From: a virus
Length of the DNA: 20,752 nucleotides
Virus record (IMG/VR): IMGVR_UViG_3300037847_002393
Span: 19,610 to 40,361 of that record
Reading direction: 5' to 3' (one strand)
Part shown: positions 3,592-19,662 of the stretch, piece by piece
Layout: the number at the start of each line of letters is the position of its first letter
How positions within the stretch are numbered: position 1 is the stretch's first letter
The notes under the pieces: model-generated
The model's database searches: none
What the model saw: the letters and a program-made list of their open reading frames with translations, nothing else
Told to the model about the DNA's origin: nothing
Translations under genes and position numbers: made by a program

Positions 3592-3779
3592 TGTGTTGCA
3601 TGTGTTTAGTTAAATTAGAAGTACCTTACATAAGACATAATGGCTTTTGGTATTGCGATTATGAGTGCTTTAACGAAGGCGTAAAAGACGAGTTGTTTTA
3701 TGCGTGGCTTAAATTCAAAAATGCTACTGACATATACAATGGTGAAATGATGTTAGGTGCAGGAACATTAAGTAATTAA
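3591..3779 (+). CDS. Zinc-finger-like microprotein (62 aa)
   Basis: MCCMCLVKLEVPYIRHNGFWYCDYECFNEG carries CxxC at residues 2-5 and CDYEC near residue 22, with the spacing of a treble-clef or FCS-type zinc site. The start at 3591 is preferred over 3570 because it forms a TAATG overlap with the previous stop. Its stop TAA is the first part of hairpin copy 4. It resembles the 2707 product in its Cys layout and may be a diverged paralogue; function unknown. Confidence 0.7.
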   Translation: MCCMCLVKLEVPYIRHNGFWYCDYECFNEGVKDELFYAWLKFKNATDIYNGEMMLGAGTLSN

Positions 3780-3806
3780 CCCCTTAATTTATTAAGGGGC
3801 TTAATT
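3774..3806 (+). repeat. Early-gene hairpin repeat, copy 4
   Basis: AATTAA CCCCTTAAT-TT-ATTAAGGGG-C-TTAATT. The usual bulge after GGGG is here C instead of A. The 5' arm overlaps the stop codon at 3779 and the 3' arm ends about 8 nt before the GGAG of the next gene. Confidence 0.75.
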
Positions 3807-3824
3807 AATTAGATTGGAGATTTT

Positions 3825-4895: not shown

Positions 4896-5047
4896 TGTTT
4901 AGTGTACAAGGTCTTATACTTGCATTTATGGGTGGAATAATGTTTATGGCACTTATATTCGGTATATGGCTATACTTTATGGAAAGGCGTATTGAAAAAG
5001 AACAAGGTCTTTCAGACGAATTTATGACGTGGGTGAAGAATTTATAA
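4895..5047 (+). CDS. Single-pass membrane protein (50 aa)
   Basis: MFSVQGLILAFMGGIMFMALIFGIWLYFMERRIEKEQG has one strong hydrophobic helix (about residues 4-28) followed by positive charge, so an N-out/C-in inner-membrane protein is likely. GGGGAA upstream is SD-like and the start overlaps the previous stop (TAATG). The stop at 5045-5047 abuts hairpin copy 5. Function unknown; superinfection exclusion is one possibility for early phage membrane microproteins, without direct evidence here. Confidence 0.65.
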   Translation: MFSVQGLILAFMGGIMFMALIFGIWLYFMERRIEKEQGLSDEFMTWVKNL

Positions 5048-5079
5048 TTTAACCCCTTAATTTATTAAGGGGATTAAAT
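5047..5079 (+). repeat. Early-gene hairpin repeat, copy 5
   Basis: ATTTAA CCCCTTAAT-TT-ATTAAGGGG-A-TTAAAT, with the bulged A conserved. The 5' foot touches the stop at 5047 and the 3' foot is followed by AGAGAGGAG, the SD of the gene at 5100. Confidence 0.75.
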
Positions 5080-5099
5080 ATAAATAGAGAGGAGCTGTT

Positions 5100-5330
5100 G
5101 TGAGTTGCAAACAAGGTGTTTCACGATATGCAAAAAACGTTGATGAACAAGATGAATTGATAACTGTCGGGCATAAAAGCGTTCCCGTGATAGCTGTTAG
5201 TCGTGCATTTGGTAAAACAACAATAACGTATGGGGATACGAATAAACCAACGCAACGAGTATTCGCAGATAATGACAATGTTGTTATCAACGAAAAGATT
5301 TATCGGCAACGCATAAAACCCAACAGGTAA
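5100..5330 (+). CDS. Hypothetical protein (76 aa), GTG start
   Basis: MSCKQGVSRYAKNVDEQDELITVGHKSVPVIAVSRAFGKTTITYGD..., a predicted small beta-rich protein of unknown family. The GTG at 5100 follows AGAGGAG at proper spacing. The gene sits between hairpin copy 5 and a strong GC-rich hairpin that starts 9 nt after the stop. Antisense frames over this gene lack support. Confidence 0.6.
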   Translation: MSCKQGVSRYAKNVDEQDELITVGHKSVPVIAVSRAFGKTTITYGDTNKPTQRVFADNDNVVINEKIYRQRIKPNR

Positions 5331-5338
5331 AAGCTATT

Positions 5339-5385
5339 ACACACCCTCTCCAAAACCTTGTACTGCGATACAAGGGGGGGTGTGT
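5339..5385 (+). other. Strong two-part hairpin after the 5100 gene
   Basis: Outer stem ACACACCC (5339-5346) with GGGTGTGT (5378-5385) and inner stem CCTTGTA (5356-5362) with TACAAGG (5369-5375) around a CTGCGA loop. No T-run follows; it leads straight into the next long stem. It may be one domain of a larger leader RNA. Confidence 0.6.
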
Positions 5386-5460
5386 GTAGCTAAGTGTCTA
5401 TTGTGTGTATTCTAATTTCCCTGTTAGTACATACGTGCTACACAGTAGGCACTTAGCTAC
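5386..5460 (+). ncRNA. Long G-U-containing stem-loop, leader of the 5484 gene
   Basis: GTAGCTAAGTG... (5386-5406) pairs with the arm ending ...CACTTAGCTAC (5440-5460) over 21 consecutive positions, two of them U-G. Since both wobble positions are U on the 5' arm, pairing holds in plus-strand RNA but not as a perfect DNA palindrome. The 33-nt apex holds smaller pairings, GTAT/ATAC and CTAA/TTAG. It ends 23 nt before the next ATG. Arm length equals that of the tandem elements at 5829-6391, so they may be related. Confidence 0.6.
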
Positions 5461-5483
5461 TTAAACATGATTGGAGGAAAACA

Positions 5484-5786
5484 ATGCAGATAAAAGTAGG
5501 TACAAAACTATCTACGTTGCCGAAATCTAACCCTTTCGGAGCAGGTAGACAAACCATTTTTGAAGAACGAAAATGGGATAAACTGTTAATGGACGCACCT
5601 TTTATGTGGGTATGTCTTGAAGTTATGCCTAAAACTACCAAATCAAATGGTACTAGACGTAGTAATGGTACGTTTTGGACGAGAGCCAAACAGTACAACA
5701 AACGTTATGGAGCTGACGGCTTTGAGTTCGCAGCACGTTGTATAGGTGGAGTATATACCTTTTGGGGTAGATACGAAACAAAATAA
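5484..5786 (+). CDS. Hypothetical basic protein (100 aa) inside RNA-rich region
   Basis: MQIKVGTKLSTLPKSNPFGAG..., basic, with aromatic segments APFMWVCLEVM and GGVYTFWGRYETK. No family recognised. TTGGAGGAAAACA gives a strong SD. It is the only gene between 5331 and 6410 and is flanked on both sides by long RNA-like stems, so it may bind or depend on those RNAs; this is inference from position. The conserved KSNGTRRSNGTFWTRAKQYNKR stretch (about residues 53-74) would suit nucleic-acid binding. Confidence 0.7.
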   Translation: MQIKVGTKLSTLPKSNPFGAGRQTIFEERKWDKLLMDAPFMWVCLEVMPKTTKSNGTRRSNGTFWTRAKQYNKRYGADGFEFAARCIGGVYTFWGRYETK

Positions 5787-5828
5787 AATCGTGGACTAGC
5801 AATAGCTCACGTAAGCTACTTACATTAA

Positions 5829-5917
5829 GTAGGTAGCTTGTAGCACATAGCAGAGTTAAAGGTCTGCAGACACTTTAAACGATTGCTAAAAACTGTTGTG
5901 TGTTACAAGCTATCTAT
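5829..5917 (+). ncRNA. Structured RNA element 1
   Basis: Arms 5829-5849 and 5897-5917 pair over 21 positions with four G-U pairs. Inside, TAGCA/TGCTA (5848-5852 with 5884-5888) encloses the hairpin GTTAAAG-GTC-TGCA-GAC-A-CTTT-A-AAC (5855-5880). The linker that follows has an 11-bp hairpin (5942-5952 with 5956-5966) and ACAC-GAAA-GTGT, a GNRA-type tetraloop. Confidence 0.6.
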
Positions 5918-6012
5918 ATAAACACGGGGATTGACCTAGTGTACGTAGATAGTAGCTATCTATGTAGGACGAGAAGATACACGAAAGTGTTGATGAAAAG
6001 CAAAGTTGGTAT

Positions 6013-6156
6013 GTAGGTAGCTTGTAACACATACCAAAATAGCTCTGCAATTTGGGAGTAGCGTGAGTGCCTAGTTAGACGATACTAGGAACAACACTTG
6101 GACGCCTTGTAGGTTCAAATCCTACCGTTAGCTAGTGTGTGTTACAAGCTATCTAT
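6013..6156 (+). ncRNA. Structured RNA element 2 with tRNA-like domain
   Basis: Arms 6013-6033 and 6136-6156 form the shared 21-bp stem. The interior looks like a cloverleaf: TAGCT/AGCTA (6040-6044, 6130-6134) as closing stem; a GCAATTTGGG stretch like a D-loop; a long arm GCGT-G-AGTG...CACT-TGG-ACGC (6061-6069, 6095-6105) topped by CCTAGT/ACTAGG; and a textbook T-arm GTAGG-TTCAAAT-CCTAC (6109-6125). A 7-nt anticodon loop and a 7-bp acceptor stem are missing, so it is not an ordinary tRNA. Confidence 0.6.
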
Positions 6157-6245
6157 TCAAACAAACTACTTGACCTCTCGCTCAGAGTACTCAAAGTATG
6201 ATAACGAAACGAGGCATACACGAAGTTAAGTATCTTGTTAATTGA

Positions 6246-6391
6246 GTAGGTAGCTTATAGCACATAGACTACAGACCGCCATACTCTAGCCCTGCAGAGA
6301 ATACAAGCTAGTAGTCGCGAATATGAGGTAGGTGAGAAACTATCCTAGCGATATAAGGTCATCTGATAGATGTGTGCTACAAGCTATCTAT
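6246..6391 (+). ncRNA. Structured RNA element 3
   Basis: Arms 6246-6266 and 6371-6391 pair with one A-C mismatch. The interior has GACTAC/GTAGTC (6267-6272, 6311-6316) enclosing a CTCT/AGAG hairpin, then AGGTAG with CTA-T-CCT around GTGAGAAA (6326-6346). The 3' arm ends 19 nt before the ATG of the next gene, so its folding could affect that gene's SD (GAGAGG). Confidence 0.6.
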
Positions 6392-6410
6392 AAGAAAGAG
6401 AGGTGATAGC

Positions 6411-6701
6411 ATGTTGCCAGAAGGCATGGTTCGTAAAGAACCACCGATTACAACGCAACGTGGTGGACGACAACCAAAAATTTTGTCACAGGACAAAGTT
6501 AAAATATTGTTGAACAACCCAAACACGTGGTACGTAATCGCCACACAACCGAGATGGAGTAGTGGAGTTGTACAAAACATACAACAAATGACACAACGCA
6601 ACATCTCACACTTGAAAGATAAAGGTTCTTTTGAGTGTAAACAGAGAAAAAATGAAACAAATGGTGTGGACTTGTACTGCAGGTTCGTACCGAAAGGATA
6701 A
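6411..6701 (+). CDS. Hypothetical small protein (96 aa) before the AAA+ gene
   Basis: Polar and basic: MLPEGMVRKEPPITTQRGGRQPKILSQDKVKILLNN, then WYVIATQPRWSSGVVQNIQQMTQRNISHLKDKGSFECKQR. The second part has the look of a winged-helix or HTH module, with helices of regular length and a FECKQR...YCRFVPKG beta end; not proven. The start at 6411 follows AAGAGAGG; a longer frame from 6372 would cut into RNA element 3. It lies 8 nt before the AAA+ ATPase gene and probably shares its message; it may be a transcription regulator. Confidence 0.65.
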   Translation: MLPEGMVRKEPPITTQRGGRQPKILSQDKVKILLNNPNTWYVIATQPRWSSGVVQNIQQMTQRNISHLKDKGSFECKQRKNETNGVDLYCRFVPKG

Positions 6702-6709
6702 ATACAAAT

Positions 6710-7429
6710 ATGAAAAAACAAACATGTTGGGAGTTAGCCCAACTCGTTATAGGTAAAAGCGATAGAGTACTCTTATACGGACCTCCAGGTACAGGTAAGA
6801 CACACTCAGCTGTAAAAGAAAACGCACCATTGAACATAAATGGTGACCCAAACGTGTATCAAATTACACTAACAGAGGAAAGCACAAGTGCAGACCTTAT
6901 GGGATATTATCAAATAGGAGAAAACCAACAGTTCGTATGGCATGACGGTATTGCTATACAGGCTTGGCGTAATGGTGGTAGATTGGTTATCAATGAGATA
7001 GACCATGCTTCACCTGACGCTATGACATTTCTACATGCCATACTTGATGACAAATCTATTGCAGGTATCACTCTCAACAACAGAGAGAAAGAAACTGTTA
7101 GACCTGCAGAAGGTTTTCAAGTGGTTGCAACTTCTAACGCAGACCCTGAAAGTCTGCCACAAGCAGTTAAAGATAGGTTTCCTATCTCAATCAACATAGA
7201 TAATATTCACCCAACTGCATTGGAAAAATTTCCTGAGCAATGGCGTGATGTGATAAACGATACCTCAACCATAGATGATGAGCATGAACGTATCTCAATT
7301 CGTAAATGGTTGGAGTTCTTTAAACTTACAGAGGAACAAAATATGGATATGGACACAGCAGGTGTACTTGTATTCGGTGATAGAAGTGAAGAATTACTTG
7401 ACGCTATCAAATTATCTAACGTAGAATAA
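6710..7429 (+). CDS. MoxR/CobS-like AAA+ ATPase (239 aa)
   Basis: ATP-driven remodelling enzyme that usually acts with a VWA-domain partner. Walker A is LLYGPPGTGKTH (residues 21-32), Walker B LVINEIDHA (92-100), sensor 1 VVATSNAD (138-145), and VKDRFPI (about 153-159) supplies an arginine-finger candidate. Length is short for MoxR proteins, about one AAA+ core with a reduced lid. About 450 nt downstream is a metallopeptidase/VWA gene (7876), reproducing the MoxR-VWA or CobS-CobT gene pairing. Cyanophages and other marine phages often carry cobS-like genes of unclear role, so cobalamin synthesis is not implied. The stop overlaps the next start (TAATG). Confidence 0.9.
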   Translation: MKKQTCWELAQLVIGKSDRVLLYGPPGTGKTHSAVKENAPLNINGDPNVYQITLTEESTSADLMGYYQIGENQQFVWHDGIAIQAWRNGGRLVINEIDHASPDAMTFLHAILDDKSIAGITLNNREKETVRPAEGFQVVATSNADPESLPQAVKDRFPISINIDNIHPTALEKFPEQWRDVINDTSTIDDEHERISIRKWLEFFKLTEEQNMDMDTAGVLVFGDRSEELLDAIKLSNVE

Positions 7430-13126: not shown

Positions 13127-13493
13127 AGACTATACAAATAAGTTTGACATTGACTTATCAAAAGGTCTACAAATGGAAGAAACTCTCAAAGAATTTTTTG
13201 AGGGTAAACGTATAGAAGTAAAATCAGAACGTCACATATGGGAAACTACAGGCAATCACTTTGTAGAGTATGAGTGTCGTGGTAAACCTAGTGGTATTGC
13301 TGTCACGGAAGCCGAGTATTGGGCTTTGATGTTGATACGTGAAGATGAAACAGTAGTTATAGTTTACATTATACCAATAGAACGTATGAAAGCACTTGCT
13401 CGTAAACATTGGAACAACAGAACTATTGGTGGTGATGACAACGCAAGTAAAGGTGTCTTAGTACCAATAGAAGAAATAGGAGAATGTATATGA
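13104..13493 (+). CDS. PD-(D/E)XK-like nuclease family protein (129 aa)
   Basis: Contains KRIEVKSERHIWETTGNHFVEYECRGKPSGIAVTEAEYWAL: E-V-K is the ExK nuclease core, and the 'TGN.F[VI]EYE.RGKPSGI..T.A[DE]YW' sequence is a pattern I recall from many phage and bacterial proteins predicted to be restriction-like nucleases. A GTG at 13098 would add two residues. It overlaps the previous gene by 23 nt and the next by 4 (ATGA). The role could be a recombination nuclease or host-DNA degradation. Confidence 0.7.
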   Translation: MQNEKKNKDYTNKFDIDLSKGLQMEETLKEFFEGKRIEVKSERHIWETTGNHFVEYECRGKPSGIAVTEAEYWALMLIREDETVVIVYIIPIERMKALARKHWNNRTIGGDDNASKGVLVPIEEIGECI

Positions 13494-13558
13494 TAGAAAT
13501 AATAATATTAACAATGGTTGCATTTATGTTGGGTGTAACTTATGGTAAAACATTATGA
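13490..13558 (+). CDS. Membrane micropeptide (22 aa)
   Basis: MIEIIILTMVAFMLGVTYGKTL is nearly all one hydrophobic helix. ATGA overlaps at both ends and GGAGAATGT upstream place it in a coupled run of genes, which supports real translation despite the size. Function unknown. Confidence 0.5.
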   Translation: MIEIIILTMVAFMLGVTYGKTL

Positions 13559-17522: not shown

Positions 17523-17734
17523 TATCTACTTACTCCTTTATTCTTTGGCTTATCTTTTCTAAATCCAATAGTTAGTAACCATATACCTAATGTAATAACG
17601 GTAGCTAAACCTGTTACTTGTTGGGCAGAACCTGTAAGTGTTAAGGTTGCAATAACTAAACCAACTAAAGTCCAACTTAAATTAAGCGTTTCTTTAATTG
17701 CTTCTACTATCCATTGCCATAATTTCTTTAGCAT
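17522..17734 (-). CDS. Two-helix membrane protein, putative holin (70 aa)
   Basis: MLKKLWQWIVEAIKETLNLS, then WTLVGLVIATLTLTG and a second helix VTGLATVITLGIWLLTIGF, ending in a basic tail RKDKPKNKGVSR. Two short membrane helices with a charged C-terminus are class II holin-like features. It is immediately downstream of the secreted acidic protein gene and upstream of cell-wall enzyme genes. Function inferred from topology and context. Confidence 0.6.
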   Translation of the reverse strand: MLKKLWQWIVEAIKETLNLSWTLVGLVIATLTLTGSAQQVTGLATVITLGIWLLTIGFRKDKPKNKGVSR

Positions 17735-19662
17735 TAACTTCTCCTAAATACAAAAGCTGCCATACTAGCTATTCTAGTCAGAATAACAGGCACTACAACT
17801 TCTTGTGCTTTTTCCTTTTGGTCTTGGGTCATATCATCACCAATACTTGTAAGGTTTATTTCTTGTATATCTATATCCACCAAAACTTCTATAGGATTTT
17901 CAACAAATGTTTCAAACTGTACCTCTGTTACTACGTCAGCAAGTGTATAGTTTTCTACATCTGCATTTTCTACTGCACGTTCTACGTATTCTTCTACTGC
18001 TTCAGCTACTACTTCATCTGATTTAATAGCTTCTGCAACGATAGCAACATCTTTAGTTTCAACTTGTAGTACCTCAGCAACAACCTCAACTTGTTCCTCT
18101 GTAAGTTCCTCAACATCTTCTATAGCCTCCTCTACTATTGCTTGTACAACTTCTTGCACTTCTTCAGATACTTGTTCCAAGTTTTGTACACCGACATCTT
18201 GTACTTCTTCTAAAACTTCTATAACTTCTTCAGTTTCTAATTCTTCAACATATTCTTCAATAACTTCAGCAACTTCTTCTTGTGACAAATCTTCTTCTAC
18301 TACAGGTATATCTACAATTTCTTCAATGATTTCTTCAACTTCAACAAGTTCTTCAACGATTTCTTCCTCAGAAAGTTCTTCTGCAAGTTTCTTCTTAACA
18401 TCTTCCTGTATTGGCTCAACCAAAACTTCCTCATCAATTTCTTCATCTTCCACCACAATAACAATGTCATCTTCTAAATCCTCCTCCTCAACAATAACCA
18501 CGATAATATCATCAGGTATATTATCAAGAATAATTTCTTCTTCTACAATCTCTATAATTTCTAATGTATCTTCTATTTCTTGTATTACATCTACAAATTC
18601 TTCTAGTTCTTCTTCAGATAAATCTTCAAGAATAATAACGCTATCTTCAAGCTCCTCTAATATAAGTAATTCTTCTTCAGCGTCTTTTTGTTCTTGAATT
18701 AAACGTTCTTCTTCAGCTTTAATCTCAGCTTCAATAATAGCTATTTCTTCTTCTGTGAGTTCAATAATTTCTTCTTCAACAATTTCCTCTGTGAGGGTGT
18801 CATCTTCAAGTATTTCTGTGTCCAACTCATCATTTAATTCTTCGGTTTTGACAATATCAACAACAACATCAGGTACGTCAGAGCAATCCCCAGGTTGATA
18901 GCCAAACCAATCTCCACTTTCTACGGCTTCCAAATATTGTTTATACGATAAAGGGTTATTCGGGTGTTCACACCCATTTTTATCCCAAGCCAAGTACGTA
19001 GTGATACCATCTTCGACCACATCTTTCGCCTTAGGTAACGTTGTCGTTGTTGTGGTGCTAGTAGTTGTTGTCGTACTAGATGTCGTTGTAGTAGGTACAT
19101 TATCATACTTATAGTATATATTATCTATTAAGTACCAGTCAGGATTTTCTCCTGTTAATCCATCAATAACTATCTCTGTAATAAAAGTATCTACACCTTC
19201 AGCTACTGTCCAAGACTTTGACATAACAGTTGTATAATCTGTGTGTTGCTCTAATGTAAATGTTTCAGAAGCACCATTATCGTAGTAAACAGTTCCTGAT
19301 ATATTATCTACATCTGTAGCACCATATTGAAAACCTACCTCGTAAGGTTCGTTAGAAAATGCAATAGTAATACTATCTGCACTACCTCTTATACCCAATG
19401 CGTGTCTATTTAAACTAAAGTATTCTGAACCAAAACAATCTAAATCTTCTATACCTATACTACCTGCTGTGCTTGTGTTAGCACATTCAGGTGATGCAGT
19501 AGTGGCAGCAGTTACTTCTGTGTCATTACTGCCATACAATATATTTATATCAGTATTTATTTGTTGGTCATTAAAAGTTTCTGTTACTGTAGTTTCTTCT
19601 GCTATAGAATGTATAGGTACAGTTAGTAAAAGAACTGCAGTTAATACTACAAGTTTTTTCAC
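17734..19662 (-). CDS. Large secreted acidic protein with Thr linker (642 aa)
   Basis: No family recognised. Residues 1-21 are a Sec signal peptide (MKKLVVLTAVLLLTVPIHSIA). Residues 22-185 form a beta-rich domain with Cys60 and Cys76, resembling a carbohydrate-binding or lectin-like sandwich (WYLIDNIYYKYD end). Residues 191-208 are almost pure Thr/Ser. Residues 220-262 hold a small Cys/Trp domain (CEHPNNPLSY...GDWFGYQPGDC). Residues about 270-605 are an extreme Glu/Val/Ile repeat region, and residues 620-642 are hydrophobic with a final RRS, like a membrane anchor. The GTG start overlaps the upstream stop (GTGA). Thr linkers of this type are common in Acidimicrobiia. Possible roles: a surface-exposed receptor-blocking or adhesion protein; unproven. 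Confidence 0.8.
   Translation of the reverse strand: MKKLVVLTAVLLLTVPIHSIAEETTVTETFNDQQINTDINILYGSNDTEVTAATTASPECANTSTAGSIGIEDLDCFGSEYFSLNRHALGIRGSADSITIAFSNEPYEVGFQYGATDVDNISGTVYYDNGASETFTLEQHTDYTTVMSKSWTVAEGVDTFITEIVIDGLTGENPDWYLIDNIYYKYDNVPTTTTSSTTTTTSTTTTTTLPKAKDVVEDGITTYLAWDKNGCEHPNNPLSYKQYLEAVESGDWFGYQPGDCSDVPDVVVDIVKTEELNDELDTEILEDDTLTEEIVEEEIIELTEEEIAIIEAEIKAEEERLIQEQKDAEEELLILEELEDSVIILEDLSEEELEEFVDVIQEIEDTLEIIEIVEEEIILDNIPDDIIVVIVEEEDLEDDIVIVVEDEEIDEEVLVEPIQEDVKKKLAEELSEEEIVEELVEVEEIIEEIVDIPVVEEDLSQEEVAEVIEEYVEELETEEVIEVLEEVQDVGVQNLEQVSEEVQEVVQAIVEEAIEDVEELTEEQVEVVAEVLQVETKDVAIVAEAIKSDEVVAEAVEEYVERAVENADVENYTLADVVTEVQFETFVENPIEVLVDIDIQEINLTSIGDDMTQDQKEKAQEVVVPVILTRIASMAAFVFRRS

Follow-up and report, generated by a model that had tools for sequence, protein, structure and literature searches.

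The array and its surroundings

The window, by which we mean the whole stretch of 20,752 nucleotides analysed here, is part of a 40,361-base IMG/VR virus record. Its plus strand carries three RNA elements in tandem, each consisting of an interior closed by a left and a right arm that pair into a long helix, which we call the handle; the arms occur nowhere else in the record. Element 1 (5829–5917) has its left arm at 5829–5849, a 47-nt interior and its right arm at 5897–5917. Element 2 (6013–6156) has arms at 6013–6033 and 6136–6156 around a 102-nt interior, and element 3 (6246–6391) has arms at 6246–6266 and 6371–6391 around an interior of 104 nt. Stems at these coordinates and interiors of these lengths had been proposed in a first-pass annotation of the DNA, and both are borne out. 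The arms of element 1 match the family consensus exactly, and its predicted helix extends on the left to 5853, giving 25 uninterrupted base pairs (5829–5853/5893–5917). That of element 2 runs for 22 bp (6013–6034/6135–6156), while element 3 pairs over 21 positions (6246–6266/6371–6391), with a single A–C mismatch at pair 11 and a compensated G–C at pair 14. All three elements fold far below dinucleotide shuffles (z = -7.7, -5.8 and -4.3 for elements 1, 2 and 3), as does the whole 625-nt stretch (z = -7.1). A conserved protein frame had been named as a competing explanation of the stretch; there is no open frame here, as the plus strand from 5787 to 6371 holds no ORF of at least 60 aa and has many stops in all three frames. 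When the array is folded as a whole, the right arm of one element is able to pair with the left arm of the next, so that 'interior' and 'linker' may be exchangeable states and the whole array could be the functional unit.

The interior of element 2 forms three hairpins in a tRNA-like layout. One of these, GTAGG-TTCAAAT-CCTAC (6108–6125, plus strand), matches positions 46–63 of the Rfam tRNA model locally, at 14.3 bits against a gathering score of 29, and similar hairpins are present in related modules. A tRNA or tmRNA was considered and rejected: ARAGORN finds neither, and the Rfam model matches the T-arm only.

Downstream on the plus strand follow a conserved gene of 96 aa (6411–6701), whose Shine-Dalgarno sequence GAGAGGTGAT lies a few nucleotides past the last stem, and an AAA ATPase gene (6710–7429), which anchors the locus and whose homologues were used to find related loci (numbered with an L below). 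The 96-aa protein is modelled with a helix-strand-helix-strand-strand order that is winged-helix-like, at low to moderate confidence (pLDDT 69). Upstream, a small plus-strand ORF at 5484–5786 is an accessory part of a variable island, present in L086 and L088–L091 and not found in L082, L085 or L087; its product and that of the gene at 6411 have a common W-V/I...F-E...Y/F-R look. Of the 71 elements near AAA homologues, 68 lie 0.4–3.6 kb upstream of the AAA gene, and 164 of 185 elements are intergenic, mostly in the same direction as the flanking genes. Judged from this arrangement, the array appears to sit near the start of an early operon, among co-directional early genes.

Several other structures surround the array. 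A second long stem of other sequence (5386–5406/5440–5460, plus strand), with AGCT near its base, is kept in close relatives; the region 5330–5466 folds into two strong adjoining stems (z = -8.0) of another sequence family, likewise conserved in close relatives. Between early genes, always just before a start codon, the window has copies of a short hairpin, TTTAACCCCTT..AAGGGGATTAAA (2382–2411, 2643–2685, 2837–2880, 3770–3810 and 5040–5085), which is also found in L085, L087 and L092–L094. In six other loci (L017, L025, L035, L053, L070 and L080), stems of about 20 bp with TATATATC at the base lie about 3–4 kb upstream of the AAA gene and enclose loops of 16–19 nt (41 nt in L080). Strong plus-strand folding is also predicted at 2251–2500 (z = -7.2) and 13401–13550 (z = -6.5), with 20 shuffles each. 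The window further contains an HNH endonuclease-like gene and, on the minus strand at 17734–19662, a gene for a long acidic repeat protein whose Thr-rich linker reads TTTTTTLP. Linkers of this type are common in some marine Actinobacteria, a weak hint that the host is found among them.

Distribution of the handle

The first-pass annotation had read the three elements as a family of modular RNAs, folded from the plus strand, a reading that called for relatives and for covariation, and both were found. Among the matches listed, more than 100 IMG/VR phage contigs carry the same handle. Pattern scans of IMG/VR yielded at least 119 stretches, anchoring on the downstream AAA ATPase yielded 80 loci, and anchoring on the 96-aa gene after the array yielded 15. 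With the window included, the arms of 11 of 81 AAA-anchored loci do not alternate strictly when up to 4 mismatches are allowed; in several of these, the partner has diverged beyond 4 mismatches or was lost at a contig end.

The carriers are a large group of marine tailed phages. The terminases of most are related, with 51 to 95% identity to that of the window phage, and in two larger carrier contigs no terminase or AAA homologue is detectable. Cultured phages have no DNA-level match to the region, and their AAA and terminase proteins are only remote relatives (below 30% among the matches listed, where the closest terminases are those of Streptomyces phages at about 25%). Of seven matches in GTDB genomes, only L217 contains an element in full; its contig is short, comes from a metagenome bin and is likely a misbinned phage.

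The handle as an RNA helix

In dozens of loci anchored on the AAA gene or the 96-aa gene, a left arm TAGGTAGCTTGTAGCACATA precedes a right arm TGTGTGTTACAAGCTATCTA. In a set of 76 different arm pairs, 98.3% of cells are paired and 13 of 20 handle pairs have changed on both sides, values that were reached in none of 500 shuffles, which leave the relatedness of the sequences unmodelled. A position that reads G-U, A-U and G-C in the three copies of the window had been taken for covariation; it is pair 14, where the wider family has GU 51, AU 13, GC 11 and CG 1 times. The proposal that differences between the arms are mostly G-U wobbles, valid in plus-strand RNA, extends to the whole family, in which the non-Watson-Crick cells comprise 222 G-U and 7 A-C. 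This strand bias argues for RNA independently of relatedness, as a DNA palindrome has no reason to prefer one strand, and it identifies the plus-strand transcript as the folding molecule. The handle is an RNA helix that covaries and carries a strand bias.

The wider set of 108 arm pairs contains 42 different inner 9-mers. Here, pairs 9–17 are variable in sequence yet paired and pairs 1–8 are fixed, the outer 7–9 bp being the most conserved part, a conservation that is affected by the search, which preset seven positions per arm either fully or to two letters. Among the conserved pairs, two wobbles are conspicuous: a G-U at pair 4 (74%) and a U-G at pair 19 (75%). Handle helices are mostly 20–28 bp long, with a mode of 22–25 bp and a lower bound that the search partly imposed. 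A search for long stems near the AAA gene, free of these constraints, returned 128 distinct stems, with AGCT in both arms of 80; its reversed-sequence control is uninformative, as reversal preserves pairing.

Interiors and linkers as portable modules

The interiors of 181 elements form 90–96 sequence clusters, 40 of which have more than one member. Those listed span 23 to 143 nt, longer spans being joined or nested. Within three aligned clusters, 6 of 37, 9 of 23 and 9 of 21 pairs have changed on both sides, counts that come from small alignments and include the handle pairs; the interior of element 2 is related to the modules of L061, L131 and L152, which form the first of these clusters.

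Modules are portable. One and the same module is found enclosed by the handle, placed as a linker between two handles, or enclosed by a stem of different sequence, as with an 86-nt module that also lies inside a AAAGGAAATGATGAAA/TTTCATCTTTCTTT stem and a 61-nt module that also lies inside a GTAGCTTGAAAGATATT/AGTATCTTTCAAGCTATC stem. When the same module is compared between different loci, the flanks are dissimilar on both sides in 147 of 161 pairs. The linkers of the window illustrate this as well. Linker module 1 (GAGAAGATACACGAAAGTGTTGATGAAAAGCAAAG, 5971–6005, plus strand) is again a linker in L079, and in L011 and L151 it forms the interior of a stem. Linker module 2 (6172–6227, plus strand) is enclosed by the handle in L002, L006, L018 and L003 and occupies linkers of L096, L127 and L214. 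Two words do recur in the linkers of the window, TTGACCT (5931–5937 and 6170–6176) and TACACGAA (5978–5985 and 6217–6224), and had been annotated as shared. Relatives place them in two unrelated linker modules, so the repetition stands, but not as a shared motif, and their recurrence is coincidental.

Linker module 2 carries the self-complementary GAGTACTC, in place of which relatives have GACTAGTC, GACTGGTC or ACGTACGT; only relatives with a CGCTyA context are counted, the search pattern itself being too loose. At 6182–6197 and in these relatives, the 8-mer thus changes while its self-complementarity is kept, which might point to RNA dimerisation.

The next ORF is homologous in 17% of same-module pairs and in 6% of other pairs, in a crude test with rough ORF calls. 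A weak cis association of the module with its downstream gene may therefore exist. The same module usually stands before non-homologous downstream ORFs, which argues against gene-specific cis regulation.

Turnover at the locus

The array had been attributed to amplification by duplication, a proposal that comparison with relatives does not support: the interiors are mutually unrelated, and the nearest relative carries almost wholly different modules between flanks that are 94–95% identical. This relative, L082, has 94.9% identity to the window as far as 5344 and 93.9% from 6371 onwards; in the interval, the alignment is confined to one 56-nt module, which in L082 lies inside a stem. Near-identical flanks around different modules indicate that modules are exchanged by recombination between phages. 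The last right arm (6371–6391, plus strand) marks a junction of this exchange. In all six close relatives compared, similarity restarts at its beginning, at 6371 in L082, L002, L091, L084 and L085 and at 6372 in L086. A further locus, L127, shares little with the window except the segment 6136–6254, which runs from a right arm into the next left arm and is 97.5% identical. Together with the restarts at the last right arm, this is the pattern expected from exchange through identical arms. Recombination at the arms is compatible with the gene content of the phage, which includes a predicted single-strand annealing protein and an exonuclease. On these comparisons, the locus is a hypervariable, recombining RNA-module locus rather than a tandem duplication.

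Comparison with known RNAs

The annotation knew of no described element with this layout, and our searches agree. At gathering score, neither the window nor any of 16 related loci matches a family of Rfam 15, GOLLD and ROOL included. A relaxed search (E up to 1) that covered further loci gave only three matches, all below gathering. A separate weak match is to the ssNA-helicase RNA (RF03070; 19.7 bits against 41.5 for gathering, E 0.52), which has a hairpin followed by UGUAGCAUGUAGCA, similar to GGUAGCUUGUAGCA in the left arm here; it is absent from 11 further loci and was dismissed as a chance match. Matches to tRNA and to miRNA precursors are either weak or local. In the literature, covered mostly through titles and abstracts, no account of such a layout was found.

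Several known systems resemble the array in part. GOLLD and ROOL are also phage-associated structured noncoding RNAs and Rfam families, but each is a single large ornate RNA. TIGR arrays of TIGR-Tas systems are likewise tandem RNA arrays in phages, some of them stem-loop arrays; their units have 8–12 nt spacers flanked by box C/D motifs, and a Nop-domain protein accompanies them (PMC12045711). The interiors here are not such short spacers but long (23–143 nt), structured and portable, and a TIGR-Tas assignment was rejected. No Nop-domain Tas protein was found in 17 phage records, which may be fragments, while control genomes were positive. A reverse transcriptase was also absent from the 17 records and detected in control genomes, and a retron or DGR reading was set aside. 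ToxI-like type III toxin–antitoxin loci of phages or mobile DNA also have structured RNA units in tandem, but ToxI repeats are near-identical, direct and beside a toxin, whereas the interiors here differ. A search for a ToxN-like toxin gave no match here, and none in the control genomes. Tandem RNA stem-loops in phage early transcripts are also known as the put antitermination RNAs of HK022, which to our knowledge are not interchangeable modules on a common handle. RNase III stems of the T7 early region, such as R1.1, are long stems between early genes in a polycistronic phage mRNA. We know of no interchangeable structured interiors in these stems, nor of a near-constant handle shared across phages. 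What appears to be new is the layout, a constant helix that carries exchangeable structured RNAs, for which we found no matching RNA family.

Possible functions of the array

What is seen is a near-constant RNA helix of about 20–25 bp that closes many different, individually structured modules, with handles and modules in tandem in what would be a plus-strand transcript near the start of an early operon. We propose, with a probability of about 0.5, that this is a modular noncoding RNA locus in which handles are cut or bound by a double-strand-RNA activity and modules are released as trans-acting small RNAs. The simplest reader of the handle would be host RNase III, in the manner of T7 early mRNA processing. 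RNase III cuts the early mRNA of T7 at five sites (PMC4858673), which makes processing at handle-like helices plausible. At about two turns, the handle has a length that fits an RNase III-processed phage mRNA stem, the transcript being assumed from gene direction. A search of 17 phage records for RNase III family PF14622 found none, so handle processing would need a host enzyme. The modules would then be released or protected as separate small RNAs and may target host factors in trans, with takeover or counter-defence as a conceivable role, one suggested only by early position and hypervariability; identical arms would let homologous recombination shuffle the modules. A more specific and tentative version is that the modules are tradeable RNA 'cartridges' that block or mimic different host or defence components, with a common factor cutting or binding the handle and exchange proceeding through the identical arms.

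The handles could instead act in cis, cutting, insulating or stabilising a polycistronic early mRNA with the interiors as passengers. The stems do lie between genes and immediately before a ribosome-binding site (6391 to 6399), the TTTAACCCCTT..AAGGGGATTAAA hairpins repeat between early genes, and T7 provides a precedent (PMC4858673). Passengers would be expected to drift, however, and the interiors show conservation and covariation and turn up again in distant phages as well as in other stems, which leaves this reading unlikely. Quite unlikely, too, is a set of cis regulators of the early operon (attenuators, riboswitches or put-like antitermination RNAs). The position near the start of a co-directional operon and the alternative pairings between neighbouring arms would suit such regulators, but the downstream gene is usually not kept with the module, terminator-like sites are not in excess in the array, and one locus holds many unrelated modules.

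Handle and interior might also form a selfish, MITE-like unit that inserts into or beside hairpins, in line with the presence of the same modules in nested positions and in linkers, their sharing between phages whose terminases are just 51–58% identical or not detected, and the HNH endonuclease-like gene within the window. Mobile units of this kind seem quite unlikely to us, as copies cluster in a single region per genome instead of being dispersed, a linked transposase is lacking and the strand-specific G-U pairs indicate a folded RNA. The same pairs make it highly improbable that the arms are inverted repeats acting at the DNA level, as targets of a phage regulator or in replication or recombination, and that the RNA signal is incidental. 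A winged-helix-like fold is predicted for the product of a small gene close to the paired 20-bp motifs, which would fit such a role, but the arms differ by G-U-type changes (222 against 7 A-C) that DNA binding would not select, and the middle of the helix covaries freely while pairing is kept.

Implications

Should the handles turn out to be processing sites and nothing more, the layout would be less novel than we claim. As it stands, dozens of unannotated structured RNA families share one recognisable handle that a simple pattern finds, so that new RNA folds can be searched for directly through the handle. Such RNA arrays are overlooked by annotation pipelines that consider genes only. The handle also raises a clear question, namely which enzyme or protein reads it and what the modules bind. 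If the proposal of a modular noncoding RNA locus is true, these arrays would correspond, at the RNA level, to the islands of exchangeable accessory genes that phages carry.
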